The translations under genes were made by a program, and so were the position numbers. The notes beneath the pieces were generated by a model. It was not told the DNA's origin, did not search any database, and saw only the letters and a list, made by a program, of their open reading frames with translations. From Geopsychrobacter electrodiphilus DSM 16401 (GTDB lineage: Bacteria > Desulfobacterota > Desulfuromonadia > Desulfuromonadales > Geopsychrobacteraceae): a DNA stretch of 64,000 nucleotides. Shown here one piece after another: positions 48,203-62,878 of the stretch. Each line of letters opens with the position of its first letter. Position 1 is the stretch's first letter. The stretch lies in the NCBI RefSeq assembly GCF_000384395.1, contig NZ_ARWE01000001.1:2010894-2074893 (forward strand), written 5' to 3'.

Positions 48203-48290
48203 TCTCCGATAAGGGCAAAACCAGAGAGATCTGGTGACGCAAAGCCACGGGCCCAGTAACTAATCAGGGTAGCCGAGTTGCCGAAGAGAG
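48203..48290 (+). promoter_or_regulatory. GEMM-I cyclic-dinucleotide riboswitch
   Basis: The aptamer shows the GEMM-I core: GGGCAAAACC, a P2 stem capped by a GNRA loop (CCAGA-GAGA-TCTGG), the conserved GACGCAAAGCCACGGG, a P3 stem, and GGGTAGCCGAGTTGCCG before the closing P1. The GGGCA block matches that of c-di-GMP aptamers such as Vc2. Geobacter relatives with a G20A change sense 3',3'-cGAMP, so ligand identity should be tested. An intrinsic terminator follows 40 bases later. Confidence 0.9.
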
Positions 48291-48330
48291 TGATATTCAA
48301 GCTTCAACCACTCACACTACGCAAGCTCTG

Positions 48331-48365
48331 AACGCTCATCTCCGGTAACGAGATGAGCGTTTTTT
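48331..48365 (+). terminator. riboswitch expression-platform terminator
   Basis: AACGCTCATCT, a 9-base loop, AGATGAGCGTT and then a T run. It lies between the GEMM aptamer and the FN3 gene, so the switch probably works by premature termination. Confidence 0.85.
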
Positions 48366-48460: not shown

Positions 48461-49303
48461 ATGATGAAACAAAAATACATCCCCTTAATTGTAGCCGGTC
48501 TGCTATTTATTCTGGCAAATACGGCATGCGCCCAGAACATCGCCCTCGCCTGGGACCCTAGTCCAGGGTCTGATGTCGTTGGTTATAAACTGTATTACCA
48601 GGCCAACGCACCGACCTTGCCACTAACCGGGAACGAGGCCACACAGGGAAGTTCACCTATTAATGTGGAGAACAGTACCAATTTTTCAATCAGCGTGCCA
48701 GACAACCAGATCTACTACTTTGCCGTCACGGCATACGATGCCGCGGGGTACGAAAGCACCTATTCCAACATTGTTGCCAGTGGATGGATACCACCATTAA
48801 TTGCTCCGATAAATGGTAGCGCGGCAGAACAATCTCAGACAGAAACCTTCAACTGGGAAACTGCTCCGGCAGCCTACAATGTCACATATACGCTCTACTA
48901 TGGGACTGATCCCCAGTTATCATTACTTCCCCCTTCCATAAGAACAGGGGCGAAAAGCATCCCACTTCAGCCGATATTGTTCTGTTCTCTGGTACTACTG
49001 ATCGGTATCATACTTTTCAACACCGATTGGCGTAGAACAGCTATTGCTACTGGAGTTATGACCTTGGCACTAGGATTTACGCTGACAGGGTGTGGTGGCG
49101 GTGGCTCTGCGGGCGGTCAGTCAATTTCAGGGACCAACAGTACAAATACGGTTGTTGTCGATGTGGGAACCAGCAATTATCATGTTGCCCTCGACCTGAA
49201 ACCTGCAACAACCTACTACTGGAAAGTGGTTGCCAATGACCAGACGAACCCAGGCCTGAAATACACGAGTCTGACCTACAGCTTTACTACGGTGTTAAAT
49301 TAA
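48461..49303 (+). CDS. exported FN3-domain protein with internal membrane/lipobox segment
   Basis: Protein of 280 residues. After a signal peptide (about 1-24), an FN3-like domain (25-108, LAWDPSPGSDVVGYKLYY, YFAVTAYDAAGYESTYSN) closely matches the N-terminus of the 58.1-60.2 kb protein. A second FN3-like domain begins at about 113 (TFNWETAPAAYNVTYTLYYGTD) but is interrupted at about 165-220 by two hydrophobic segments joined by NTDWRR and ending in a lipobox-like TLTGC followed by GGGGSAGG. It resumes at about 228 (YYWKVVANDQ). The gene is under a GEMM riboswitch. Function unknown; surface role inferred. Confidence 0.75.
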   Translation: MMKQKYIPLIVAGLLFILANTACAQNIALAWDPSPGSDVVGYKLYYQANAPTLPLTGNEATQGSSPINVENSTNFSISVPDNQIYYFAVTAYDAAGYESTYSNIVASGWIPPLIAPINGSAAEQSQTETFNWETAPAAYNVTYTLYYGTDPQLSLLPPSIRTGAKSIPLQPILFCSLVLLIGIILFNTDWRRTAIATGVMTLALGFTLTGCGGGGSAGGQSISGTNSTNTVVVDVGTSNYHVALDLKPATTYYWKVVANDQTNPGLKYTSLTYSFTTVLN

Positions 49304-50141: not shown

Positions 50142-51557
50142 CTACACAGAATAGTTGTGCAAACCATGTTTTTTTAAAAGGTCATATAGGGTTGGACGAC
50201 TGACAGACAATTGCTCTGCGGCTTTTTGAATGTTTCCTTGAGCCTGTTCTAATGCATAGCTCAGCAGGTCATATTCAATCCTCGAACGAGCATCCTTCAG
50301 GGTCAGGCCTTTGAGATTTAGCTGACCCGTAGCAGGGCATATTTCAGCTTCTACGACATCTTCATCTCCTGGTTCCGGTTGAGGCACGAATCCCAGATCC
50401 CAGGGTTCAATGATCGAGGTTTCCGCCATCACCACCGCGCGTTTTATTTTATTCTCCAACTCACGCACATTTCCCGGCCAGTGATAATCTTGCAGCCACG
50501 AGAGTGCCGCCTGGCTGAACCCACGGGTTTTCTTGCCAAATTCCTGACCGAAGCGACTCAAAAAAACATTGGCCAGCAACCGGATATCCTCACCGCGTTC
50601 GCGCAGGGGAGGCAATTCAAGACTGATAACACCGATGCGATAATAGAGGTCTTCACGAAACTGCCCCTGTTGAATCGACTCCATAATATCGATATTTGTT
50701 GCGGCTATAATCCGGGCATCAACGCTGATATCTTCGCGTCCACCAACCCGCTGAATCCTCTTTTCCTGTAAAAAGCGCAACAACTTCACCTGAAGCAAAG
50801 CTGGCATCTCGCCAATCTCGTCCAAAAACAATGTCCCGGAATCAGCATATTCCACCTTACCCTGGACCATAGCCTGGGCACCGGTGAACGAGCCCTTTTC
50901 ATGGCCGAACAATTCCGACTCAAGGAGACTTTCAGGAATTGCCCCACAGTTGATGGCGATAAAGTTCCCTGTCTTGCGCAGGCCGCCCTGATGAATTGCC
51001 TGGGCGACCATCTCCTTTCCGGTCCCGCTTTCACCCAGGATCAGGACCGGGACGTCGATTGAGGCAACTTTTTTGATCGTAGCGAAAACCTTCTGCATCT
51101 GGGGGCAGTTCCCGAAAATCCCCGAGTGCCCCTTACCGCTGTTCCGCACCCGCAACTGCAGGGCACGGTTCTCTTCTTCAAGCTCAGCAAGCTGAAAAGC
51201 GCGCACCAGGATGATCTTGAGCTCAGCGAGGTCGATGGGCTTATGATAAAAATCGTAAGCCCCAAGGTTGATCGCCTCCAGAGCGTTAGCGTGGTCTTCG
51301 TTCCCAGAAAGGATAATCACTTTGCAACTGGGTTGCTTTTGTAAAATAGCCTGCAAACAGCGCAACCCTTCGGTAGCGTTATCGACCTCCGGGGGTAATC
51401 CCAGGTCCAGGGTAACAACCTGCGGGCTGTGCTCATCAAACAGTTTAAGGGCTTCGTCGACCGACTCCGCCAGAAGGATTCGATAATCCTTGCCCAACCC
51501 CCATTTAAGTTGCTTGCGAATTTCCGAACTGTCATCAACAATCAGTAAATTTTTCAC
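50142..51557 (-). CDS. prsR: PEP-CTERM system response regulator, sigma-54 activator
   Basis: NtrC-type regulator of 471 residues. Receiver (LLIVDDSSEIRKQLKWGLG, phospho-acceptor Asp in VTLDLGLPP), AAA+ domain (GESGTGKE, GSFTGA loop, GNVRELENKIKRAVVM) and Fis-type HTH (GNIQKAAEQLSVSRPTLYDLLKKHGL). The sequence and its coupling to a PrsK-type kinase fit PrsR of exosortase/EpsH systems, which activates sigma-54 promoters of PEP-CTERM or exopolysaccharide genes. Its start overlaps the prsK stop by four bases. It is the last gene of the minus-strand run from 60.2 kb. Confidence 0.92.
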   Translation of the reverse strand: MKNLLIVDDSSEIRKQLKWGLGKDYRILLAESVDEALKLFDEHSPQVVTLDLGLPPEVDNATEGLRCLQAILQKQPSCKVIILSGNEDHANALEAINLGAYDFYHKPIDLAELKIILVRAFQLAELEEENRALQLRVRNSGKGHSGIFGNCPQMQKVFATIKKVASIDVPVLILGESGTGKEMVAQAIHQGGLRKTGNFIAINCGAIPESLLESELFGHEKGSFTGAQAMVQGKVEYADSGTLFLDEIGEMPALLQVKLLRFLQEKRIQRVGGREDISVDARIIAATNIDIMESIQQGQFREDLYYRIGVISLELPPLRERGEDIRLLANVFLSRFGQEFGKKTRGFSQAALSWLQDYHWPGNVRELENKIKRAVVMAETSIIEPWDLGFVPQPEPGDEDVVEAEICPATGQLNLKGLTLKDARSRIEYDLLSYALEQAQGNIQKAAEQLSVSRPTLYDLLKKHGLHNYSV

Positions 51558-53656
51558 ATCCCACTCCTGAGTGTCACATCCACATTTTGTCGCCGGTCAT
51601 CTCCACGCAGATCTGGCGCCAGAGGCAAGTGTAGCGTAAAACTGCTCCCTTCATCGGGTTGACTCAATACTTCTATCCGCCCACCATGCGCTTCCACAAT
51701 CTGGCGACATTGATATAAACCGATACCTAAGCCATTCTTCTTGGTTGTTGCAAAAGGTTTGAACAGCCGATTTTTAATAAAATCAGCGTTCATCCCGCAC
51801 CCTTTGTCCGTGACCCTCACAAACCCCCAGGAATTCTCTCTTCCATATTCGATTTTAACCTCGGCCAGATTCGCAGAAGCCTCGCGGGCATTGACGAGAA
51901 GATTTAAAATCACTTTATAAATTTCTTCGTCATCCGCATCAATCAAGGTCGGCGTGCCGTCAATTTGAACTTTACAACCACTTGTGACAACGGCATCAGT
52001 AATGATTTTTTGCACATCCACCGGGGTAGTAATCAGTTGAGGCTTTTCCTTAATATTTTTAAGGCGGGAGATCAAAGTCTTCATGTTTTGAACGGTCTGA
52101 TCAACCGTCTCGAGCATGTCTTGTTGGAATTCAGGGTCATCAATATAGTTACGCGCGTTATCCAGCATCAACGATAGTCCTGATACCTGGTTTTTTAGAT
52201 CATGCAGGACAAACGTTGACACCTTACCAATAGCTGCCAGTTCACGCACCGTCGTTAACTGCTCAGCCAAACTGATCCCCTGCAAGGTCGCAATAGATTG
52301 CCGTGCTAGCATGCGCATCAAATCATAATCTTCGTAGCTCAGTTGTTCGTTCTGATTAATCTGTCCGGCCAGCACGATAAATCCCGACAACTTATTATCA
52401 AAACGCAGTGGAATGATAAACGATGCCCCGGCAGCGCTCATTGTTTCGAGAAGCGGGCTCTCAAGCCCACTATTAACTTCTGTCAGATTAACAATCCAGT
52501 CTCTTCCCTCAAGTTCAGCCAGCATCGGATCTGATACTAAATAGCTACGCCAGTCCCGCTGAAACTCATAGTAGGCTACGCTTGAAAAAAAGTTCTCTTC
52601 CGGGTGCCGCAGATAAATGGAACCACCCTTAGTGCCAAAGGTTTCACAGAAAAAAACCAGAATTGCCTGTTGCAACCCGGACAGTGAGCCTGCGGTAGAA
52701 ACCCTATTAGTAAAAGCCAGCCACTGGTCCCGATAATCATATTTACTCTGGAAAAAATTTTTATGCAGCACAACCCTGACCCGACGACGCACGCTTTCTG
52801 AAAGAGACAGGAGTGAAACCACCACAGTACAAATCATCGCAACGGCCAGCATCAGGCTGCGATGTGCGCGAAGTTCCATATATTCCATGCCTTCGCCAAG
52901 CATCCCTAGCCCAAGGAGATAGACACCAAGCGCCAACAATATCATTGAACGATATGCTGCGTTTCGCGATATACAAATTACCTCACCACGACTGCGATAG
53001 ACTCGTGAGTAGAACAACAGACAGATTGTTAACAACAGAGCAAAGGCCCGCGCGTCCTGCAGCCTCATGTCCAACGAGCGATACAACAGGGTCTGGCTGA
53101 AATAGACGACCAGGGTACCTAACAAAACACAGATGGCAATAATTTCGAATTTGACGCGCCAGCGCTCATGCTGGTTTAAAGCCGAGAGGGTACGTTCCAA
53201 CTGCACCATCGGTAGAATCAACAGGCAGGATAAGATGAGGTAAAACCAGAAACCGGTACTGGTCAAAAATAGAAGCTTCTCCTCACCAAAATCGGGAGAA
53301 AAGAAAAGCCCTGCGGGATTCAGCCAGAAGCTCCAGAATGCAAATAAAAGAGCGAGCGGTAACAGCCAGCGAGAAGCCCGAGATAAATTTTTCAACCCTG
53401 ACGGACGACAGAAATTACCCGAATAAAAAAATGCGGCCAGAGGGAGACAACCTTCAAGCCGAACAACAAAGATCTTTAAACCCAGGTTCTCAGGGTGAAG
53501 AAGAATATTCGATTCCAATGCCTGGAGTGTAGCGTACAGAGCGAGCAGTACCAGCGGGGGGAGAAGTTCAGCGATACGAAATTTCAGGGCCAGAAAAAGA
53601 CCAAATAAGAAGGTCGCTATTAGGGAAATGACCGTGAGAGAAGAAATAAGCATCAC
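51554..53656 (-). CDS. prsK: PEP-CTERM system histidine kinase
   Basis: Kinase of 700 residues. About eight N-terminal transmembrane helices (residues 1-290), a GAF-like domain (about 320-470, GGSIYLRHPEENFF, FIIPLRFDNKLSGFIVLAGQ), then an unusual H-box (FVLHDLKNQVSGLSLML) and HATPase_c (LNLLVNAREAS, DKGCGM, GLGIGLYQCRQIVE). The HDLKNQ phospho-acceptor motif and this architecture define PrsK of exosortase loci. Together with PrsR it should control sortase-system genes through sigma-54. Confidence 0.93.
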   Translation of the reverse strand: MMLISSLTVISLIATFLFGLFLALKFRIAELLPPLVLLALYATLQALESNILLHPENLGLKIFVVRLEGCLPLAAFFYSGNFCRPSGLKNLSRASRWLLPLALLFAFWSFWLNPAGLFFSPDFGEEKLLFLTSTGFWFYLILSCLLILPMVQLERTLSALNQHERWRVKFEIIAICVLLGTLVVYFSQTLLYRSLDMRLQDARAFALLLTICLLFYSRVYRSRGEVICISRNAAYRSMILLALGVYLLGLGMLGEGMEYMELRAHRSLMLAVAMICTVVVSLLSLSESVRRRVRVVLHKNFFQSKYDYRDQWLAFTNRVSTAGSLSGLQQAILVFFCETFGTKGGSIYLRHPEENFFSSVAYYEFQRDWRSYLVSDPMLAELEGRDWIVNLTEVNSGLESPLLETMSAAGASFIIPLRFDNKLSGFIVLAGQINQNEQLSYEDYDLMRMLARQSIATLQGISLAEQLTTVRELAAIGKVSTFVLHDLKNQVSGLSLMLDNARNYIDDPEFQQDMLETVDQTVQNMKTLISRLKNIKEKPQLITTPVDVQKIITDAVVTSGCKVQIDGTPTLIDADDEEIYKVILNLLVNAREASANLAEVKIEYGRENSWGFVRVTDKGCGMNADFIKNRLFKPFATTKKNGLGIGLYQCRQIVEAHGGRIEVLSQPDEGSSFTLHLPLAPDLRGDDRRQNVDVTLRSGM

Positions 53657-53659
53657 AGA

Positions 53660-54298
53660 TCAAATTGGCAAAAATGTGTTTATAATTGGTACAAAATCAC
53701 GCATAAACTCTTCACCCGTCGCCAGAGCCTTTGCTTCATCCTGATGAATCATCAGAGACAAACGGATAAATGCTGAATCCCGCCGGTTCCTCAGGATAGA
53801 ATTTTTGATCATCACAAACTTCAGCGCATATTCATTGGTCAGCACCTCATCGCCCTCCTGAAACCAGTACAAAAACAACTGTTTCTGTTGATCTTTCTGA
53901 TAGACCGCGCTGACATAAGGGACTTTATGCCCGTTAATCAGAACAGAACGGACCTCATCATGCAGACGATTCCAGCCACTGCCCGGCAGACACTGCTTGG
54001 GCGAATGGATCGGTCCACTATCGGGCCCCCCGTCATGGAACCCGAGATAAAAGCCGAGTTGCTCACCACGTGAGTTTTGGTAGTTGCGGGACAGATAGTC
54101 AGACGGCCTTAAGACCTCAAGTACCTGCCCAGAAAAGTGCGATTCCCCGGTCATGACCCAGTTTGCGACTCGCAGCGGGAAAAGATTAAACGGTTTCCCC
54201 GTCGGCACCGCCACTTCAGTGCGAGTCTGCACATAGACAAAAGCCAGGCCAAGAATCACAAACAGCAGATAAAAACGCCAGGCTTTGATGGCATTCAT
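53660..54298 (-). CDS. epsI: exosortase-associated EpsI-family protein
   Basis: Protein of 212 residues with one N-terminal membrane helix (about 8-24) and a periplasmic domain. The HSPKQCLPGSGW motif is characteristic of EpsI. Other typical stretches are NYQNSRGEQLGFYLGFHDG and LYWFQEGDEVLTNEY. In many genomes it is fused to the C-terminus of exosortase; here it is a separate gene overlapping xrtA by four bases. Its biochemical role is not established. Confidence 0.92.
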   Translation of the reverse strand: MNAIKAWRFYLLFVILGLAFVYVQTRTEVAVPTGKPFNLFPLRVANWVMTGESHFSGQVLEVLRPSDYLSRNYQNSRGEQLGFYLGFHDGGPDSGPIHSPKQCLPGSGWNRLHDEVRSVLINGHKVPYVSAVYQKDQQKQLFLYWFQEGDEVLTNEYALKFVMIKNSILRNRRDSAFIRLSLMIHQDEAKALATGEEFMRDFVPIINTFLPI

Positions 54299-55128
54299 GA
54301 CCAGACCTTTCTTATCAAGCCACTGGCGGCAAACAATAACACCATCGCCAGAACAAACACGGCCATCCCGGCAAATTCGTGAAAAAAGCCCTCGGCTGCG
54401 GCAGCACCAAAATGCTGGGCGAGCAACCCCGTCACTATGACCCGAATCATATTGGTCGAAATCGCAATGGGAATAGTCAGGAGAACCAGAAGGATCCGGC
54501 GTGAAATTTTAGGTTGTGAAACTATAGCTAGAGCCACTCCCAGAGCCAGCAGCGACATCAAAGATCTCAACCCGCTGCAGGCGTCAGCCACTTCAAGAAC
54601 GGTCTGCGGGAACATGATAATGTTCCCTTCGCGCACCACCACAACCCCCATTAATTTTAAGGCAATGACCGAAAATTTGGCGACAAATAACTTCAGGGGA
54701 AACGCCATGGCGTCGTAAACAATATAGGGGAGCGGAATCATGAAGAAGAGAAAGCCGAGCGGCAGGGTCAATTGTTTTAACCACTGCCAGCCGAACAGAA
54801 ACAGGACAATTCCTGCCAGCAGCAACACGAACGACGCGCGCTTGGTAAAAAATTCCTGCGCCGCCAGCCCGGCAAAGAGAACCAGCAATGAGAACAGAAT
54901 CAGGAACAGTCCACTGTTGGCCGGTTTCGGCGGCAGCTGCTCCAGCTTATGCCGTTGTTGCCAGACAAAGTAACCGGAAATAAACGGGACCAACAAACCG
55001 TGGGAATAATTGGGATCATTCAACCAATCAAAAAAAAGCTTCTCAAAGATACCAGAATAAATCCCCGCAATGCAAAAGATAAGAATGAGAAATAGACTCA
55101 TTTGCTGTTTTGATAATGGCGAAATCAT
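54295..55128 (-). CDS. xrtA: exosortase (XrtA/EpsH type)
   Basis: Integral membrane transpeptidase of 277 residues with about eight helices. The proposed active site is intact: Cys184 (DACSGLRSL), Arg229 (TNMIRVIVTG) and His250 (FFHEFAGM). The N-terminal DPNYSHGLLVPFISGYFVW block is typical of XrtA. It is expected to cleave PEP-CTERM tripartite signals (PEP motif, membrane helix, Arg cluster) and pass the protein to the surface. The neighbours (EpsI, PrsK, PrsR, TIGR03790) support the assignment. No PEP-CTERM substrate was found in this window. Confidence 0.94.
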   Translation of the reverse strand: MISPLSKQQMSLFLILIFCIAGIYSGIFEKLFFDWLNDPNYSHGLLVPFISGYFVWQQRHKLEQLPPKPANSGLFLILFSLLVLFAGLAAQEFFTKRASFVLLLAGIVLFLFGWQWLKQLTLPLGFLFFMIPLPYIVYDAMAFPLKLFVAKFSVIALKLMGVVVVREGNIIMFPQTVLEVADACSGLRSLMSLLALGVALAIVSQPKISRRILLVLLTIPIAISTNMIRVIVTGLLAQHFGAAAAEGFFHEFAGMAVFVLAMVLLFAASGLIRKVWS

Positions 55129-55309
55129 AACAATTACAGTTTCCCCTCAATAAAAACGGCTGTTCAATCTGCGTGAATTCAGGAGCAGAGTGCCCCTGCA
55201 CTGGAAGAGACTTAAAGAATAGGTGGTAAACCCATGATCTGCAAGCGATTAATCGAATAGCCAGGCAGCACAACGCAAGGGTTTTAAAAAAATAAGTTCA
55301 ATACTCCAC

Positions 55310-56557
55310 TCACCTGATCTTTTGTTTAAGCCAGCGCGGACGATAAAGGGGATCCCCGAGCAGAACCATCTGCCACGAAAGATATCGCTGGCTGTGAAAA
55401 TAAGCTTCAACCAGGGTCTCGGCATCAACAGTCAGCAGCCTGAAAAAAAGCTCCGGTTCGGGAAAGGCCTGAATATAAGGCTCAGCAACCGGGCCGAGAG
55501 TGGCGGTGACGCCGTCCTCCAACATCCGTTTGCACCACCCCTGCCCTGGCCCTGCGCGCAGGGTCGCACATTCACCGCTGGCAATATGATAGCCGATGGC
55601 CCCACGCCGCCAATCAAAAGCATCGACGTACTTTGCCAAACTGTACCAACCACAATAGAGGGCTGCATCGGGTGCCTCACCAGCTTGAAACAGGCCCGGC
55701 TCAGCATTTATCACCACCGGCATCAGGTTGAGCGACTTCAATTGTTCAGCTGCCAGATGAATAGACTGATCATAAAGATCATAGCTGCGCAAATTCGGCG
55801 TTCGATTCGCTGGGCCCTTGGCGTCAAAATAAGCGGTCCCCCGCAGCCCATCACGTTCGGCGAACAGGCTATCATCAATCATGCGCCTGGCGATTGCCAG
55901 TGAAGGAGCATCAATGCGACTTCCCAGCAAAACTTCAGCTGGAGTGTTCTCCAATTTCAGATGCTGGTAACCGACAAAAAACGGATTCGGCTGCCAGGCG
56001 TCGAGCGCATAATCGTCCTTCAGTACCAGCGTCAACTCAGAATCGAGCGCGGCGCCAGAATCTGACTTACGGGAGCGACTGATTTTTCTATCCAGTAACT
56101 CTAACTGCATCCGATCAACCGCAACGCCAGAGCGATGTTCATCAGCAGATTGGATAGATTGCATTAAGGTGTCGCGCTGCCGTTGCAACCGACGCAACGC
56201 TGCCAGCTCCTTTTCTGTCAGTGCCGGGGGCGCGACTTTTAACGGTACACCGTAGAGGGTGACAAATGCACGGATAGAGCTTGAAGATTTTCGTGCCTGT
56301 ATAAAATCACGAACCGGTTGTGCAACCTGTTGGTTGTAGACCTTGCGCGAGCAGGATTCGTTGGCTTCGATGGTGAGCGTCAGCAAGTTTTCCGTGGGGA
56401 TGCTACGCTTTTCCATATAATAATGAGCCAGCTCGAGGCTCCCCGGCATACGCCGGTTAGCGATCACCAGAACTTCAGCGGGCGACAATGCCCAGGCGGG
56501 AAGAAAGATGCCACAGAGGAGGCTAAGCGTCATCAGTAGGATGAGGATAATTTTCAT
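55310..56557 (-). CDS. TIGR03790-family exported protein
   Basis: Protein of 415 residues with a signal peptide (LMTLSLLCGIFLPAWA). The mature part begins LSPAEVLVIANRRMPGSLELAHYYMEKR and contains ESCSRKVYNQQVAQPVRDF and YGVPLKV, the pattern of TIGR03790, a family of unknown function that occurs in exosortase-bearing genomes. A charged segment (about 125-170) interrupts the domain. The ATG at 56557 has no good RBS but overlaps a short upstream frame that does. 181 bases separate it from xrtA. Confidence 0.85.
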   Translation of the reverse strand: MKIILILLMTLSLLCGIFLPAWALSPAEVLVIANRRMPGSLELAHYYMEKRSIPTENLLTLTIEANESCSRKVYNQQVAQPVRDFIQARKSSSSIRAFVTLYGVPLKVAPPALTEKELAALRRLQRQRDTLMQSIQSADEHRSGVAVDRMQLELLDRKISRSRKSDSGAALDSELTLVLKDDYALDAWQPNPFFVGYQHLKLENTPAEVLLGSRIDAPSLAIARRMIDDSLFAERDGLRGTAYFDAKGPANRTPNLRSYDLYDQSIHLAAEQLKSLNLMPVVINAEPGLFQAGEAPDAALYCGWYSLAKYVDAFDWRRGAIGYHIASGECATLRAGPGQGWCKRMLEDGVTATLGPVAEPYIQAFPEPELFFRLLTVDAETLVEAYFHSQRYLSWQMVLLGDPLYRPRWLKQKIR

Positions 56558-56880: not shown

Positions 56881-58086
56881 CTAAAAATTTGGGAGATCTG
56901 GCGGCAACTGATCGAAGATCGTTGTGAAACTCCAGCTAATGGGGTTAGTAACAGTGTTCCCATAAATGTCGGAAACAGCCGTAAGATCAACCCGGTAGGA
57001 TGAGAACGCCATCAAGTACACCTCGGATGAGAATTTAACCTGTTTCAGGACAGGATCATAAGAGACTGTTCCGGGTACCAAACCCGTTGGGCCGCTGAGC
57101 TTAAGTGTCTGCACCGATACTGATGCAGGGTCAAGTGCTTCATCAAAAGTCATGGAGATTAACGCATCGATGGATGCACTGCCATTGACTACAGGGCTCT
57201 GACTGATGACTCTTGGCGGGGTCATATCCCAAACTGGATTGGCGGCCAGTATACGTTCGCTATACCGATCAAGAAGTGTGGTATTTAACGCGGCGCTATC
57301 TATCCCCAACATAATGGAAGACTTGATCTCCTCGACCGCGACTGCATCAACTGCATTAATAAGTCTCTGCGCAATGATCGCACCATTATTCATCACCTGA
57401 TCGCTGATCATCAATGAACTTGCCTCCCTGTGGCTCTCAGCATAAATGGGACCGGTATTCTGCTCAACATCTGCCTGCAGGCTGCCCATCAAGGCTGCGG
57501 TAATGCGAGCGGCACGATGAACATCTACCATCTCAGGTTTCGTCTGTTGCTGGAGATAGTCCTCAAACAGGGAAACACCGCTGCTCAGGCCAAGCTTCGT
57601 ACGAACGCGGGTTTCTGCGTCCGCAAACGAAAGAGAGGGGTTTTTGTCGAGTTCATTCTTGACCAAGGTCGTCAGGGGGGAGACAAAGGACCAGTGACCC
57701 GCCGGGGCTTCAAGGATGTAACCCTCGGAGATACTCTGATTGCTCTGGTCTTCATCTACCGTCACACCTGCGATAATCTCGGCGACGACCGGATAAAGTC
57801 CCCCTTCCCCCGGCTGTATATCCAGTGAGAATCGACCTTGAGCCCCAGAGTTTGTCCATGGTTCATCATTATCCTGGCGACGATTACCGTTGCGATCCAG
57901 GAAAACCCTGGCATTAGTGAGATAACCATCGGCAACCTGCCCGTTCAAAACGGTAACGGAACCTGTGTTCGCCACGATTCCGCTGCCACTGCCAGTGTCA
58001 CCGCCACCTCCTCCACCGCCACAGGCGGCCAAAACCAAACCCAGGGATACGACGGTGAGACATTTTATATATTTAATAGTACGCAT
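56881..58086 (-). CDS. Gly-rich lipoprotein with C-terminal Ig-like domain
   Basis: A lipobox (VLAAC, Cys22) is followed by a run of Gly and a TGSGSG linker. The region at about 45-95 (VADGYLTNARVFLDRNGNRRQDNDEP) resembles a carboxypeptidase-regulatory or dockerin-like calcium-loop unit often seen in exported Geobacter lipoproteins. A helical middle part (about 125-280) follows, then a Big_5/SbsA-type Ig-like domain (about 293-390, PPRVISQSPVVNGSASIDALISMTFDEALD). GGGAG precedes the ATG. It starts 11 bases after the FN3/cadherin-like gene stop and belongs to the tandem-riboswitch transcript. Confidence 0.82.
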   Translation of the reverse strand: MRTIKYIKCLTVVSLGLVLAACGGGGGGGDTGSGSGIVANTGSVTVLNGQVADGYLTNARVFLDRNGNRRQDNDEPWTNSGAQGRFSLDIQPGEGGLYPVVAEIIAGVTVDEDQSNQSISEGYILEAPAGHWSFVSPLTTLVKNELDKNPSLSFADAETRVRTKLGLSSGVSLFEDYLQQQTKPEMVDVHRAARITAALMGSLQADVEQNTGPIYAESHREASSLMISDQVMNNGAIIAQRLINAVDAVAVEEIKSSIMLGIDSAALNTTLLDRYSERILAANPVWDMTPPRVISQSPVVNGSASIDALISMTFDEALDPASVSVQTLKLSGPTGLVPGTVSYDPVLKQVKFSSEVYLMAFSSYRVDLTAVSDIYGNTVTNPISWSFTTIFDQLPPDLPNF

Positions 58087-58097
58087 TTTTTTACTCC

Positions 58098-60170
58098 CTA
58101 TTGTTGCGGTTTTGGAACGATAAGAGACGCCGCCTCATTAACCGAATTGACGTAGATCCAGTAACCAACCCGGGGAATGAGGATCGCTCCTTGTGCTCCA
58201 GCACTGCTTTCGAAAATATTGTTGTTCCCCCAATCCAGGCCGGCGAAGCGATAAAGTCCGTTAATCACCTGCTGGCTACTGGCAGCTTCAGCCCAGGTTA
58301 TTGGCGCAGCTCCGGTGTTCTGAAATTGAACTTCTGCGAGGGGAACATTCCCGCCATAGGGATTAGAGATGAGATTCCAGCCGGTTTTGACCGGGATTTT
58401 ATATGTCAGTGTCGTGATCTCGCCAAATGATCCAAGGTCAGGCAGCAAGCTGTTAGTCATCCGTTTGATGACATAACCTTCACCTGGGCTCGCTGGGCCA
58501 TTAGTGTCAACCAGGGCGTAACTGCCATTACTGGTAACACTGTGAACCCAGCGAAAGGACTGGGTTGCCCCAAGCGCTTCGACACTGCTGAGTTGAGCAG
58601 GCGCGATATCTCCCGGGGTGCCGACGAGATTCTTTCCATTCAAAAGTTCAACCCGAGGACCAGCAAGTTCGGTCCCGACGGGTAAGCGGGAAAGAATATT
58701 GCCTTGCGCATCTCTGGTTTCAAAGTGGAAATGCTGAGACGCGGCCGGGCCGAGACAGGTTTTGAAAACGTAGGTCGCACCAACATTAACGTTGCCGCTT
58801 TCACGGGTCATTACATAGGCGTATCCGTTCAGGTGAAGAACAACCTCTGGCAATACCCCGCCAGAACTATCCTGCATGACAACCCGGAATATATATTCGA
58901 GGTCACCTTTTGGAAGTCCGGCAACAAGGTTGTTTGAGTCATCGCCATTATCAGCACGGCTGACACCAGGCAAACCGGTTTCCGCGGTGGGAAGCCTCAA
59001 CCCTTCGATTACAACCGAACCAACATTTATGGTGATTGCTTCAGAATCACTCAAGCTGCCGTCACTGACGTTGAAGGTCAGGTTATAACTTCCTACCTGG
59101 CTGCTGCCTGGGGTCCAGGAGAAGGTATGCGTTGTCGTATTGAAATAAGCTCCACTCGGCAGGCCAGCAACGCTGTAGGTCAAGCTGGTGCCGTCGGGGT
59201 CGCTAGCATTGACGGTGAAGCTTAACAGGGAACCCTCGTTGACCGTCTTGCTGCCGATGGAGGCTAACACCGGGGCCTGATTCAGGTTACCGACACTGAT
59301 CGTAATGGTTTCTGAATCACTCAGGCTGCCGTCACTGACGCTGAAGGTGAGGCTGTAGTTTGCCGCCTGGCTGCTGTTCGGCGTCCAGCTGAAGGTATGG
59401 GTCGTCGCATTAAAGGAGGCGCCGCCTGGCAGACCAGTAACGCTGTAGATCAAGTTGTTGCCGTCGGGGTCACTGCCACTAATGATGAAGATCAAGGCTG
59501 AACCTTCATTGACCGTTTTATTGCCAATAGAGGCCAACACTGGGGCGCGATTCAGATCACCGACACTGATCGTGATCGTTTCTGAAGCACTCAGGCTACC
59601 GTCATTGGCACTAAAGGTCAGGCTGTAACTCCCCGCCTGGCTGGTATTCGGTGTCCAGCTGAAGGCATGCGTAGTTGGATTGAAAGAGGCGCCTGCTGGC
59701 AGACCGGTAACGCTATAGGTCAGGCTGTTACCGTCGGGATCACTGGCACTGATTGTAAAGTTAAGGGTAGAGTTTTCGGTGACTATCTTGTTACCGATAG
59801 CTGCTAAAATCGGGGGCAGATTGGTGGTACCGCCAACTGCAGCACTAGTGACTATGTTGGAATAAGCACTCTCATAGCCCGATGCATCATATGCAACCAC
59901 CGCAAAATAGTGGGTTTGAGTATCGGCTAAACCGGTAATGCTCGTGCTTAAGGATGTTCCGACATCAATCGGCGAGTTACCCTGATTGGCACCACTGCCA
60001 TTGAAAGGCAGGGCAGAAGAATCGGCCCGATAATAGAGCTTGTATCCAGTAATGTCGCTACTTGGGCTGGGATCCCAGGCCAAGGTCACCGACTTAGCGC
60101 TGGCGACATTTGAAAGAATTAAACTGAAACAAAACGTGAAAAATAATATTTTGCCGATAATGTGAGCCAT
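58098..60170 (-). CDS. exported FN3/cadherin-like repeat protein under tandem riboswitches
   Basis: Protein of 690 residues with a signal peptide (KILFFTFCFSLILSNVASA). An FN3-like domain (about 22-108, LAWDPSPSSDITGYKLYYRA) homologous to that of the 48.4 kb protein is followed by three He_PIG/cadherin-like domains of 90 residues (ASDPDG, SYSLTF, DGSLS in each). A C-terminal part of about 285 residues (GWNLISNPYGG, PRVGYWIYVN) carries no membrane anchor or PEP-CTERM signal. The ATG at 60170 has GGAG seven bases upstream; the longer frame adds five residues. Probably a surface or matrix protein whose expression depends on a cyclic dinucleotide. Confidence 0.85.
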   Translation of the reverse strand: MAHIIGKILFFTFCFSLILSNVASAKSVTLAWDPSPSSDITGYKLYYRADSSALPFNGSGANQGNSPIDVGTSLSTSITGLADTQTHYFAVVAYDASGYESAYSNIVTSAAVGGTTNLPPILAAIGNKIVTENSTLNFTISASDPDGNSLTYSVTGLPAGASFNPTTHAFSWTPNTSQAGSYSLTFSANDGSLSASETITISVGDLNRAPVLASIGNKTVNEGSALIFIISGSDPDGNNLIYSVTGLPGGASFNATTHTFSWTPNSSQAANYSLTFSVSDGSLSDSETITISVGNLNQAPVLASIGSKTVNEGSLLSFTVNASDPDGTSLTYSVAGLPSGAYFNTTTHTFSWTPGSSQVGSYNLTFNVSDGSLSDSEAITINVGSVVIEGLRLPTAETGLPGVSRADNGDDSNNLVAGLPKGDLEYIFRVVMQDSSGGVLPEVVLHLNGYAYVMTRESGNVNVGATYVFKTCLGPAASQHFHFETRDAQGNILSRLPVGTELAGPRVELLNGKNLVGTPGDIAPAQLSSVEALGATQSFRWVHSVTSNGSYALVDTNGPASPGEGYVIKRMTNSLLPDLGSFGEITTLTYKIPVKTGWNLISNPYGGNVPLAEVQFQNTGAAPITWAEAASSQQVINGLYRFAGLDWGNNNIFESSAGAQGAILIPRVGYWIYVNSVNEAASLIVPKPQQ
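59007..59816 (-). repeat. three 270-bp tandem repeats encoding cadherin-like domains
   Basis: Units at 59547-59816, 59277-59546 and 59007-59276 each encode 90 residues with the order (A/P)P(V/I)LA(S/A)IG, SDPDG, GLP, FSWTP, DGSLS, ITI(S/N)VG. DNA identity is high, particularly between the second and third units, so copy number may change by recombination. Confidence 0.85.
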
Positions 60171-60222
60171 TTTTTTCTCCTGCATTTATTTGGACTGACT
60201 GTTTTAGCTATACGGTCAGGGC

Positions 60223-60262
60223 AAAAAAAGCGCTCACCTCGTTACCGAAGGTGAGCGCTTTT
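60223..60262 (-). terminator. terminator of the proximal riboswitch unit
   Basis: On the minus strand AAAAGCGCTCACCT, a short loop, then AGGTGAGCGCT followed by seven T. It lies between the proximal GEMM aptamer and the FN3/cadherin-like gene. Confidence 0.9.
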
Positions 60263-60300
60263 GAGTACAGGGAAAAATCAGGGCAAAAGTTAGCTAACAC

Positions 60301-60386
60301 TCTCTTCGGCAACCCGGCTATCCTGACTTTCAGGACCCGTGGTTTTGCGTCGCCAGATTTCTCTGGTTTTGCCCTTATCGGAGACT
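60301..60386 (-). promoter_or_regulatory. GEMM-I riboswitch, proximal copy
   Basis: The minus strand reads CTCCGATAAGGGCAAAACC, P2 stem with GAAA tetraloop (CCAGA-GAAA-TCTGG), CGACGCAAAACCACGGG, P3 stem (TCCTGA...TCAGGA), TAGCCGGGTTGCCGAAGAG. All hallmark GEMM-I blocks are present. It is nearly identical to the aptamer at 48203-48290 in P1/P2. A terminator follows 38 bases on. Confidence 0.9.
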
Positions 60387-60504
60387 AATTTTTGTATTTA
60401 AAACTAAGCCATCTACGTATTACTCCTGTTGCGCAAGGCAGCGGCAGTTCAAAATTTGATAGTCTAAAAATTCCGGATAAGTTTGAATCAAGGTAGGGTG
60501 AAAC

Positions 60505-60543
60505 AAAAAAGCGCCCACCTCAGTTAAAGAGGTGGGCGCTTTT
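60505..60543 (-). terminator. terminator of the distal riboswitch unit
   Basis: On the minus strand AAAAGCGCCCACCT, a loop, then AGGTGGGCGCT and six T. The stem sequence differs from the proximal one by compensating changes, so both are maintained as functional hairpins. Confidence 0.9.
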
Positions 60544-60582
60544 GATTGCGGGAGGATAAGGTGGGCAAACAATTGCGTACAC

Positions 60583-60666
60583 ACTCTTCGGTAACCCGGC
60601 TGTCCTTATTTGAGGACCCGTGGTTTTGCGTCACCAGATTTCTCTGGTTTTGCCCTTATCGGAGAC
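60583..60666 (-). promoter_or_regulatory. GEMM-I riboswitch, distal copy
   Basis: The minus strand repeats the proximal architecture: CTCCGATAAGGGCAAAACC, P2 with GAAA loop, TGACGCAAAACCACGGG, P3 (TCCTCA...AAGGACA) and CAGCCGGGTTACCGAAGAG. It precedes its own terminator (60505-60543), and the whole unit then precedes the proximal aptamer, giving two switches in series. Confidence 0.9.
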
Positions 60667-60749
60667 TTATACAGTTTTTATGAGTGCCTGATACTTTTCC
60701 ACTTTGGGAAAACGATTATTAATTAGAATACAATAACTTATTGGTTCGT

Positions 60750-60777
60750 ATTATGCCATATTTCAAAATGCAGTCAA
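60750..60777 (-). promoter_or_regulatory. promoter upstream of tandem riboswitches
   Basis: On the minus strand TTGACT, 16 bases, CATAAT. Transcription would start near 60743, about 77 bases before the distal aptamer, leaving a leader of some 570 bases. The 60667-60875 stretch is AT-rich and otherwise empty; the IS30 end lies about 100 bases upstream of this promoter. Confidence 0.6.
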
Positions 60778-60875: not shown

Positions 60876-61997
60876 TCAAAATTGAAGTGCAACACTTTGA
60901 GGAGTTAAAGTGTTGCTATGGAAGATACCTACAAGCATTTGGATTGTACAGAGCGGGCAGTTATTCAAGTGGGACTGGAGCAGGGACATTCTTTGCGCTC
61001 CATCTCCCAGAGTTTGAGCCGTTCCGTGAGCACCGTAAGCCGAGAGTTGCAACGTAACCATTGGAAGCCACCGTCTTCCCGGTCAGGTCGGCGGGGCCGG
61101 CGACCGGTAGCAGGAGGCTATCGTGCCACACGGGCCGAGCACCGCGCCAGACAGCTGGCACACAAACCACGAAAGGATAAGCGACTGATCCCCGGCAATG
61201 CCCTCTGGTCGAAGGTTGTTTCACTCTTGCAGACGGGGAATTCACCAGAGCAGGTTTCTGGTACACTGAAGCGCATGCACCCCAAGGAGCCTCAGTTTCA
61301 GATCAGCCATGAAACCATTTACACGGCGATCTACACCATGCCGCGCGGAGAATTACGCAAAGAGGTCATTTCTTTGCTGCGGCAATCCCGCAAGAAGCGT
61401 CGGCCGCGCAGCCGTGGTGAAGATCGCCGGGGCAGTCTCCCCAATATGGTCAGCATCCATGAGCGCCCCCCAGAGGTGGACGAACGATTGGTTCCTGGCC
61501 ACTGGGAGGGCGACCTCATCAAGGGAGCGCGCAACGCATCGGCCGTGGGGACGCTGGTGGAGAGGACCAGTCTGTTCGTGGCTCTGGCCAAAGTCGACAA
61601 TGGCAGCGCTGAGTCCGCCCAGAAGGGGTTCAGCTATGTTCTCAATCGGATCGATGCCCAACGACGTTTAAGCATGACCTACGACCAGGGCAAAGAGATG
61701 GCCTGTCACGAGATACTGTCGGAGAAGACCGGGATCAAGGTTTATTTTGCCGATCCCCATAGCCCCTGGCAGCGAGGCATCAACGAAAACACCAATGGCC
61801 TGCTGCGCCAGTATCTACCAAAGAGTACGGATCTCTCGGCATTCTCTCAGGAGGAGCTTGACCAGATCGCCTTGAAGCTCAACGCCAGGCCGAGGAAAAG
61901 TCTTGATTGGAAGTGCCCAGCCGAAATTTTTCTGCCGGATTTCGATTTTCGCGAATACTATGGGCGCATTCTAGAACCTGTTGCACTTCGAACTTGA
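60876..61997 (+). mobile_element. IS30-family insertion sequence, apparently intact
   Basis: The 1,122-base element has 19-bp terminal inverted repeats at 60876-60894 and 61979-61997 (TCAAAATTGAAGTGCAACA against TCAAGTTCGAAGTGCAACA, 16 of 19 identical) around one full-length transposase gene. Size and the single gene fit IS30. The right repeat overlaps the last codons and stop of the transposase. No convincing short target duplication is seen (flanks GGC and AAC). It sits next to the leader region of the FN3/cadherin-like gene. Confidence 0.9.
60918..61997 (+). CDS. IS30-family transposase
   Basis: DDE transposase of 359 residues. The N-terminal HTH (LDCTERAVIQVGLEQGHSLRSI, SRSVSTVSREL) binds the element ends. 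The catalytic core carries the acidic triad: Asp in GHWEGDLIKG, Asp in MTYDQGKE and Glu in NENTNGLLRQYLP. These motifs define IS30. Full length, no frameshift, so probably active. GAGTTAAAG serves as a modest RBS. Confidence 0.95.
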   Translation: MEDTYKHLDCTERAVIQVGLEQGHSLRSISQSLSRSVSTVSRELQRNHWKPPSSRSGRRGRRPVAGGYRATRAEHRARQLAHKPRKDKRLIPGNALWSKVVSLLQTGNSPEQVSGTLKRMHPKEPQFQISHETIYTAIYTMPRGELRKEVISLLRQSRKKRRPRSRGEDRRGSLPNMVSIHERPPEVDERLVPGHWEGDLIKGARNASAVGTLVERTSLFVALAKVDNGSAESAQKGFSYVLNRIDAQRRLSMTYDQGKEMACHEILSEKTGIKVYFADPHSPWQRGINENTNGLLRQYLPKSTDLSAFSQEELDQIALKLNARPRKSLDWKCPAEIFLPDFDFREYYGRILEPVALRT

Positions 61998-62183: not shown

Positions 62184-62276
62184 TCAAAACCGCTTTCTCG
62201 AACGATGGTCACCGTGATAGTAAATCAATCCTATAAATTCCATGAAAAGGTACTTTGCTCTTTTTAGCGACTGATA
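62184..62276 (-). pseudogene. out-of-frame C-terminus of the YdcF-like gene
   Basis: Reading on from the G run in the third frame gives YQSLKRAKYLFMEFIGLIYY and ten more residues before TGA at 62184-62186. The E-F-I-G-L-I-Y-Y ending matches the usual DUF218 C-terminal helix, so this is the original end of the gene. The run would need 12 or 15 G instead of 14 to connect the frames. Confidence 0.65.
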
Positions 62277-62878
62277 CCCCCCCCCCCCCCGAATAACTTC
62301 GTCGCATAGGTTGGGTAGATGCCCAACTCAATATCTCGATCATCTGCAAGCTGAGTAAAAGCCAAAAAAGATCTCTTTGTGTGATAGTCAGAGGTAACAA
62401 TTATTAAGCTGCCAAGATGGTTATCAAAGGCATAATCGAGGATATGTTTTACATCAAAGTAGGTTCCGCTTTTTGTAAAGGGTAATTTAACGATCGCGTG
62501 AACAGGAACCCCAGCTTTGATTAATTTCTGCTCTGCCCATTCAATTTTATACAAGTTTCTTTGGAAAGATTCCGACCAGGCACTTAAGACTCCATCGTTG
62601 GCCAGAATGACCCGTGAGGCTCGTCCCTGATTAAACAAAAGAGCTGCTGCCGGTAACCTTTCGCGTGCGCTCCCTGCCATTAAAACAATCGCATCTGCGT
62701 GAGCCAGAGGTTTCTCAAAAACCAAATACTCATCGAGTGCCATAAAAAATAGAATCAACCCCAGGATAAAAAAGGCTGGGATTAAAAACCCAGAGATAAA
62801 GAGGAGTCGCCACTTTCTCGTTATGGGAGATTTATTCTTTACATTAAAGAAATATCTCATCTCTCGGATGGGGTCCAC
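62264..62878 (-). CDS. YdcF/SanA-family (DUF218) membrane protein, frame broken at a G/C run
   Basis: Protein of 204 residues as it stands: N-terminal helix (about 28-50), then the DUF218 core with DAIVLMAGSARERLPAAALLFNQGRASRVILANDG and IIVTSDYHTKRSFLAF. The last residues (GGGGGISR) come from a run of 14 C on the plus strand and are followed at once by a stop. The expected family ending (aromatic residues, then an E-x-x-x-L-x-YY helix) is found in another frame directly after the run. The gene is therefore either shifted by the homopolymer, phase-variable or affected by a sequencing error. DUF218 proteins act in envelope or polysaccharide metabolism. GTG start; an ATG six codons on is possible. 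Confidence 0.75.
   Translation of the reverse strand: MDPIREMRYFFNVKNKSPITRKWRLLFISGFLIPAFFILGLILFFMALDEYLVFEKPLAHADAIVLMAGSARERLPAAALLFNQGRASRVILANDGVLSAWSESFQRNLYKIEWAEQKLIKAGVPVHAIVKLPFTKSGTYFDVKHILDYAFDNHLGSLIIVTSDYHTKRSFLAFTQLADDRDIELGIYPTYATKLFGGGGGISR
62277..62290. repeat. homopolymer of 14 C within a coding frame
   Basis: Fourteen consecutive C on the plus strand (G on the coding strand) mark the junction between two frames of the YdcF-like gene. Such runs change length readily during replication and are also prone to sequencing error. Confidence 0.95.

Follow-up and report, generated by a model that had tools for sequence, protein, structure and literature searches.

Two GEMM-I aptamers, each with a terminator of its own, precede a single operon in Geopsychrobacter electrodiphilus DSM 16401, and the locus raises the questions of which ligand the two units sense, in which direction they switch and what the second adds to the first. 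The window, i.e. the whole stretch of 64,000 nucleotides that was analysed (G000:C1:2010894-2074893), is part of a single-contig genome of 4.24 Mb, whose relatives include Desulfuromusa. The reading that we favour and regard as probable is that the units are two transcriptional c-di-GMP-I riboswitches, independent of each other and arranged in tandem in one leader of ~560 nt, which together would act as a pseudo-cooperative OFF device on a conserved two-gene operon. The features on which this reading draws are collected in Table 1.

Table 1. Features of the tandem riboswitch leader, its operon and the third GEMM-I unit of the window (window coordinates).
Feature	Position	Strand	Evidence or remark
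Predicted sigma-70 promoter, TTGACT-16-(TG)CATAAT, extended -10 (TGCATAAT)	60777-60750	-	Best of 14 sites, 10/12 matches, TG before -10
c-di-GMP-I aptamer 1 (G20, A47, C92)	60663-60586	-	RF03167 70.7 bits, E 1e-14; RF01051 75.2 bits
Strand A1 (GUUACCGAAG + AGUG), 3' end of aptamer 1	60595-60582	-	Can pair with 5' arm and loop of terminator 1
Linker strand UUUGCCC, possible anti-aptamer strand	60569-60563	-	Sequence, inference; complementary to aptamer 5' strand GGGCAAA
Intrinsic terminator 1	60543-60507	-	15-bp stem, then U-run; about -28 kcal/mol
c-di-GMP-I aptamer 2 (G20, A47, C92)	60382-60304	-	RF03167 64.9 bits, E 4.6e-13; RF01051 74.2 bits
Strand A2 (GUUGCCGAAG + AGAGUG), 3' end of aptamer 2	60313-60298	-	Can pair with CACCUUCGGUAAC of terminator 2
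Intrinsic terminator 2	60261-60223	-	Hairpin 60261-60227, then U-run; about -25 kcal/mol
Regulated gene 1, secreted protein	58098-60185	-	695 aa; FnIII, three Ig-like (He_PIG/Big_9) repeats, conserved C-terminal domain
Regulated gene 2, probable lipoprotein	56881-58086	-	401 aa; Big_5 domain; conserved partner of gene 1
PrsR, PrsK, EpsI, exosortase A and TIGR03790 genes in a row	50142-56557	-
Third c-di-GMP-I unit, single	aptamer 48205-48286, terminator 48330-48362	+	RF01051 67.8 bits; A:T pairing -21.6 kcal/mol
FnIII lipoprotein gene downstream of third unit	48461-49303	+

The window contains three full-length aptamers of the c-di-GMP-I clan (Rfam, cmscan; E-values from 1e-14 to 4.6e-13), matches that are far beyond chance. 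Both aptamers of the tandem pair exceed the RF01051 gathering cut-off of 35 and cover model positions 1-87, both carry the GNRA tetraloop on P2 (CCAGA-GAAA-UCUGG), and aptamer 1 is the top-scoring GEMM-I in the whole genome. The preliminary description had announced two complete GEMM-I aptamer-terminator units in series and had proposed a covariance-model search as the check; the search was significant for both copies, and each is followed by a hairpin with a U-run, which bears this part of the description out.

To read the binding pocket, positions were set via the G21-C46 and C22-G45 pairs, position 20 being the base before and position 47 the base after the G21-C46 pair, in a numbering that we take to be that of the Vc2 structure. 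G20 and C92 are found in all 38 orthologous or window units and A47 in 37 of them, the motif not being found in the remaining one. At position 20, G is the mark of c-di-GMP binders and A that of cGAMP binders (PMC9481103), and an A20G change switches the selectivity of a cGAMP riboswitch to c-di-GMP (PMC6456294). Both aptamers thus have a canonical c-di-GMP-type pocket and, because of G20, are predicted to sense c-di-GMP. That they instead respond to 3',3'-cGAMP as members of the GEMM-Ib class, a ligand the preliminary description had kept in play, or to another dinucleotide, is in our estimate highly improbable. The cGAMP-signalling Geobacter belong to the same order, and the best E-value of both aptamers is to a variant model, c-di-GMP-I-GGC (RF03167), whose cut-off of 59 bits both exceed. 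The cGAMP class requires the A20 that neither copy and none of the 38 units has, however, and the consensus G47 of the variant model is replaced by A47 in both window copies, so that membership in RF03167 was rejected as well, ‘GGC’ being taken here, in our own interpretation, as bases 20/47/92 of the model consensus. In some relatives the Rfam variant names differ between the two copies (GGC, UAU), a difference that the pocket bases do not bear out.

Transcription of the leader is predicted to start at ~60742 on the minus strand, from a promoter-like site upstream of both aptamer-terminator units. Shuffled sequence yields at least as many promoter-like sites as the region does, and this site is supported by its score and its position; downstream of it, as far as the start codon at 60185, the promoter scan found no further minus-strand site. 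An IS30-family transposase gene (60918-61997, plus strand) is inserted ~100 bp upstream of this promoter, and farther on a DUF218 open reading frame (62264-62878, minus strand) has at its 3' end a run of ~14 C (about 62280-62293) that might be prone to slippage. The terminator-scan total for the region likewise does not exceed that of shuffles, and what speaks for the two terminators is their strength and their conservation in relatives. In both units, the 5' arm of the terminator begins 42-43 nt past the end of the aptamer, and the terminator contains no aptamer strand; the single leader therefore holds two aptamers of the same class with a complete platform each. The compensating changes previously noted between the terminator stems are present at one position, which is C-G in terminator 1 and U-A in terminator 2 (GCGCCCACC/GGUGGGCGC vs. 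GCGCUCACC/GGUGAGCGC); the loops also differ (CUCUUUAAC vs. CUUCGGUAAC).

In both units, GUUrCCGAAG at the 3' end of the aptamer, with a few bases of the linker, forms the complement of the loop and 5' arm of the terminator that follows, the target being CACCUUCGGUAAC in unit 2 and a shortened version, CACCUCUUUAAC, in unit 1. The pairing of strand A2 with terminator 2 reaches -24.9 kcal/mol (p 0.003 vs. dinucleotide shuffles) and that of A1 with terminator 1, where the pairing region runs further into the linker, -18.2 kcal/mol (p 0.009). Among 279 other hairpin-plus-U-run sites of the same DNA, a control set that replaced an earlier one with duplicate loci, nine pair as well as unit 1 and one as well as unit 2; this lone control (in L096) carries the second-unit loop of G083 and is thus a GEMM-linked terminator that the filter had let through. 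Of 34 GEMM-linked hairpins, 23 have the loop motif C[TC][TC]CGG[TC]A, vs. 3 of the 279 others, and the antiterminator pairs are formed to 91.7% across relatives vs. at most 61.5% when the pairing is slid. Minimum-energy folds of the nascent RNA, from a model without ligand or tertiary contacts, contain the A:T pairing just before the 3' arm of the terminator emerges, after which the terminator takes over.

Several comparisons added less to this picture. With an aptamer strand that hardly varies, covariation was rejected as proof of the antiterminator: double-sided changes are confined to two pairs, and 120 of 500 shuffles show a covariation score at least as high. When the platforms of the two copies in a genome were exchanged, the pairing was not significantly weaker (p 0.26); across genomes, cognate aptamer-platform pairs beat random pairings (2/20000), a comparison confounded by kinship. 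An extension of the pairing by the linker only was not significant in the window units (p 0.2 and 0.09); of 37 units, 10 showed a significant one, and most of these are second copies in relatives. A genome-wide search with CTTCGGYAACG alone gave no more matches than the reversed pattern, and the GYAA part of the loop could alternatively be kept as a GNRA tetraloop.

The strand layout suggests the direction of switching. In the OFF switch Cd1 of Clostridioides difficile, the terminator consists of strands T and H and the antiterminator of T, A and H, whereas in the ON switch of pilM the aptamer strand itself is part of the terminator (PMC9262584). Compared at the level of strands, the window units share the layout of Cd1, with an aptamer 3' strand A that is complementary to the terminator 5' arm T and a terminator made of non-aptamer strands. 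We therefore infer OFF polarity from sequence and folding, a point that the preliminary description had not remarked on. Without c-di-GMP, GUUrCCGAAG and the next linker bases would pair with the 5' arm and loop of the terminator, blocking the hairpin, and the polymerase would read on; in the window clade, the linker strand UUUGCCC may also invade the aptamer 5' strand. With c-di-GMP bound, the 3' strand would be locked in the aptamer, freeing the local terminator to form and stop transcription. As the polymerase must pass both units, repression would multiply.

Conservation of the arrangement was assessed upstream of orthologs of the Ig-repeat protein, sought via its C-terminal domain and found in 33 of 136 genomes of the order; the aptamer scan covered those upstream regions having enough sequence. 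Two aptamers in series precede the ortholog in 13 species (G000, G011, G013, G014, G016, G017, G018, G021, G081, G083, G086, G093, and G097) and three in G102, in which units 1 and 2 are identical in aptamer and linker. A single aptamer was found in G012, G019, G023, G036, G096, G112, and G113, a few of these singles being perhaps incomplete or accompanied by a second copy that scores below threshold. The doublet kept in 13 species and the triplet in another agree with the earlier suggestion that both units are probably under selection, and to judge from this distribution of sequences the tandem arrangement is an old, maintained feature. A GEMM-I triplet at L093:3878-4463, with a period of 254 nt and with the first two aptamers and linkers identical, is a very recent whole-unit duplication. 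Among Desulfuromusa-like genera, first-unit platforms tend to cluster with the first-unit platforms of other genera and second-unit platforms with second-unit ones, whereas in G013, G016, and G017 each genome's two aptamers cluster with each other. The support values for this grouping are mixed and the window-clade copies too similar to decide, but platforms appear copy-specific across genera and some aptamers homogenised within a genome, for which the simplest reading would be that the unit was duplicated long ago and its aptamers later underwent gene conversion.

The other GEMM-I copies of the genome provide a comparison. The third unit of the window, on the opposite side of the exosortase/PrsK/PrsR cluster from the tandem pair, has the same OFF-type anatomy, and the product of the FnIII lipoprotein gene downstream of it has an N-terminus 48% identical to that of the 695-aa protein. 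In contrast, 10 of 12 other copies have an ON-type anatomy, in which the terminator 5' arm begins 15-19 nt inside the aptamer. These include two A20-type tandems, a triple array at G000:C1:500-848 (minus strand) and a double at G000:C1:2869655-2869871 (plus strand), comprising loci L006 and L009-L012, whose aptamers probably sense cGAMP. The GEMM-I of L014 has only a weak, ambiguous hairpin, and the single copy of L005 (C1:707448, G20) is followed by a separate downstream hairpin, as in the window. Four further single copies (L002, L007, L008, and L013) combine G20 with a flipped C21-G46 pair. From this anatomy, predicted polarity would track pocket type in most copies, canonical G20/G21-C46 pockets going with separate terminators. 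More tentatively, one fold may have been fitted with opposite platforms, serial c-di-GMP OFF units on a surface-protein operon vs. cGAMP-type A20 ON arrays, so that two dinucleotides would drive opposite surface programmes, with tandem OFF copies kept over genera, gene conversion of aptamers and copy-specific terminators; we hold this to be possible, with the odds somewhat against it.

Two other readings of the tandem pair have to be weighed at this point. c-di-GMP commonly promotes biofilm formation and surface attachment, and repression of an adhesin-like gene by this ligand would run contrary to that role, which counts against the OFF reading. The same pair might instead consist of ON switches, in which c-di-GMP prevents termination, as in the cGAMP riboswitches of Geobacter (pilM, pgcA): the characterised GEMM-I riboswitches of Geobacter with transcriptional platforms are ON switches (PMC6456294, PMC9262584), most other copies of this genome share their anatomy, and the free unit 1 linker GCCCACC could pair with the 3' arm of its terminator. 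Unit 2, however, has no GCCCACC-like strand, ligand binding could not dismantle in the manner of pilM a terminator that contains no aptamer strand, and the strand that the ligand would lock away is the very one that would block the terminator. ON polarity is unlikely in our view.

Alternatively, only one unit of the window may respond to the ligand, the other, probably unit 1, being a decayed copy or a constitutive attenuator. The pairing loop of unit 1 has lost CGG, its pairing is weaker than that of unit 2 and is equalled by more of the control hairpins, and the seven apparent single-unit relatives exist. Yet its aptamer scores as highly as stated above and keeps all pocket bases, the stem of its terminator carries the compensated change, and GCG/CGC, CAC/GUG, and CUCUU/AAGAG pairs persist in its nascent fold; we hold a single responsive unit to be rather improbable. 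We thus retain two ligand-responsive OFF units as the preferred reading.

What two such units would achieve was explored with a simple serial model, in which two independent OFF units sense the same ligand and expression is the product of both read-throughs. With 90% termination per bound unit, this model lowers residual expression from 10% to 1% and the half-point to 0.48 K. The 10-90% range, ~80-fold for a single unit, shrinks to 40-56-fold (48-fold at 90% termination). Deeper repression, i.e. the squaring of residual expression, is the main gain predicted by the model. The steeper dose response previously suggested is also predicted, but the sharpening is modest. A logic gate in the two-input sense, proposed alongside it, is unlikely because both aptamers should sense the same ligand; a combination of c-di-GMP and cGAMP inputs was discarded, as both copies and all orthologous copies have G20.

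On the side of the target, tblastn searches in relatives showed that the conserved operon consists of the Ig-repeat gene and the lipoprotein gene following it. The preliminary description had named an adhesin-like protein and possibly the exosortase genes; a secreted Ig-repeat protein operon stands, whereas control of the exosortase genes has lost ground. In the window, a gap of 323 nt without a clear terminator separates the lipoprotein gene from the exosortase cluster, and in the stretches examined in relatives none of the TIGR03790, exosortase, EpsI, PrsK, and PrsR genes lies downstream at the same position. Given the gap and the lack of conservation, the link to the tandem riboswitch is weak and these genes were dropped as conserved targets; we found no connection between exosortase genes and these riboswitches in the literature. 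The genome encodes five PEP-CTERM proteins, none of them inside the window.

The tandem architecture itself is not new, as the preliminary description had recognised: c-di-GMP-I comes first among the tandem classes of a published survey, with 347 doublets and 12 triplets (PMC9481103), and its tandems are enriched in Thermodesulfobacteriota (PMC12452182). The pair resembles the pseudo-cooperative tandems of that survey in having two aptamers with their own platforms in one leader and differs in its predicted OFF polarity and in its Ig-repeat and lipoprotein operon, conserved in a Desulfuromusa-containing family. Serial same-ligand c-di-GMP-I switches of a different phylum, with a more digital response, are alike in layout, the level at which they were compared. 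Tandem GEMM-Ib riboswitches with a transcription-termination readout precede omcAHG (GSU2885) in a related anaerobe, Geobacter sulfurreducens, and are cGAMP-type ON switches (PMC6456294), unlike the window pair with its G20 pockets, separate terminators and OFF anatomy. A tandem GEMM-Ib leader of this species has RNA-seq support, its second unit losing reads in a deletion mutant of the cGAMP synthase (PMC6456294). Cd1, for its part, is a single unit before flagellar genes (PMC9262584), whereas two units in series precede a surface-protein operon here. Possibly new are the conserved target, the OFF polarity predicted for this lineage and the contrast in polarity within one genome.

Standing before one and the same operon, the doublets and triplets, at least 14 in all, and the seven apparent singles form a natural set in which the benefit that cells draw from tandem c-di-GMP riboswitches can be tested by comparison or deletion. 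With predicted OFF units and ON-type A20 copies in one genome, an opposition between c-di-GMP and cGAMP in the control of surface-protein genes could, in turn, be tested directly.
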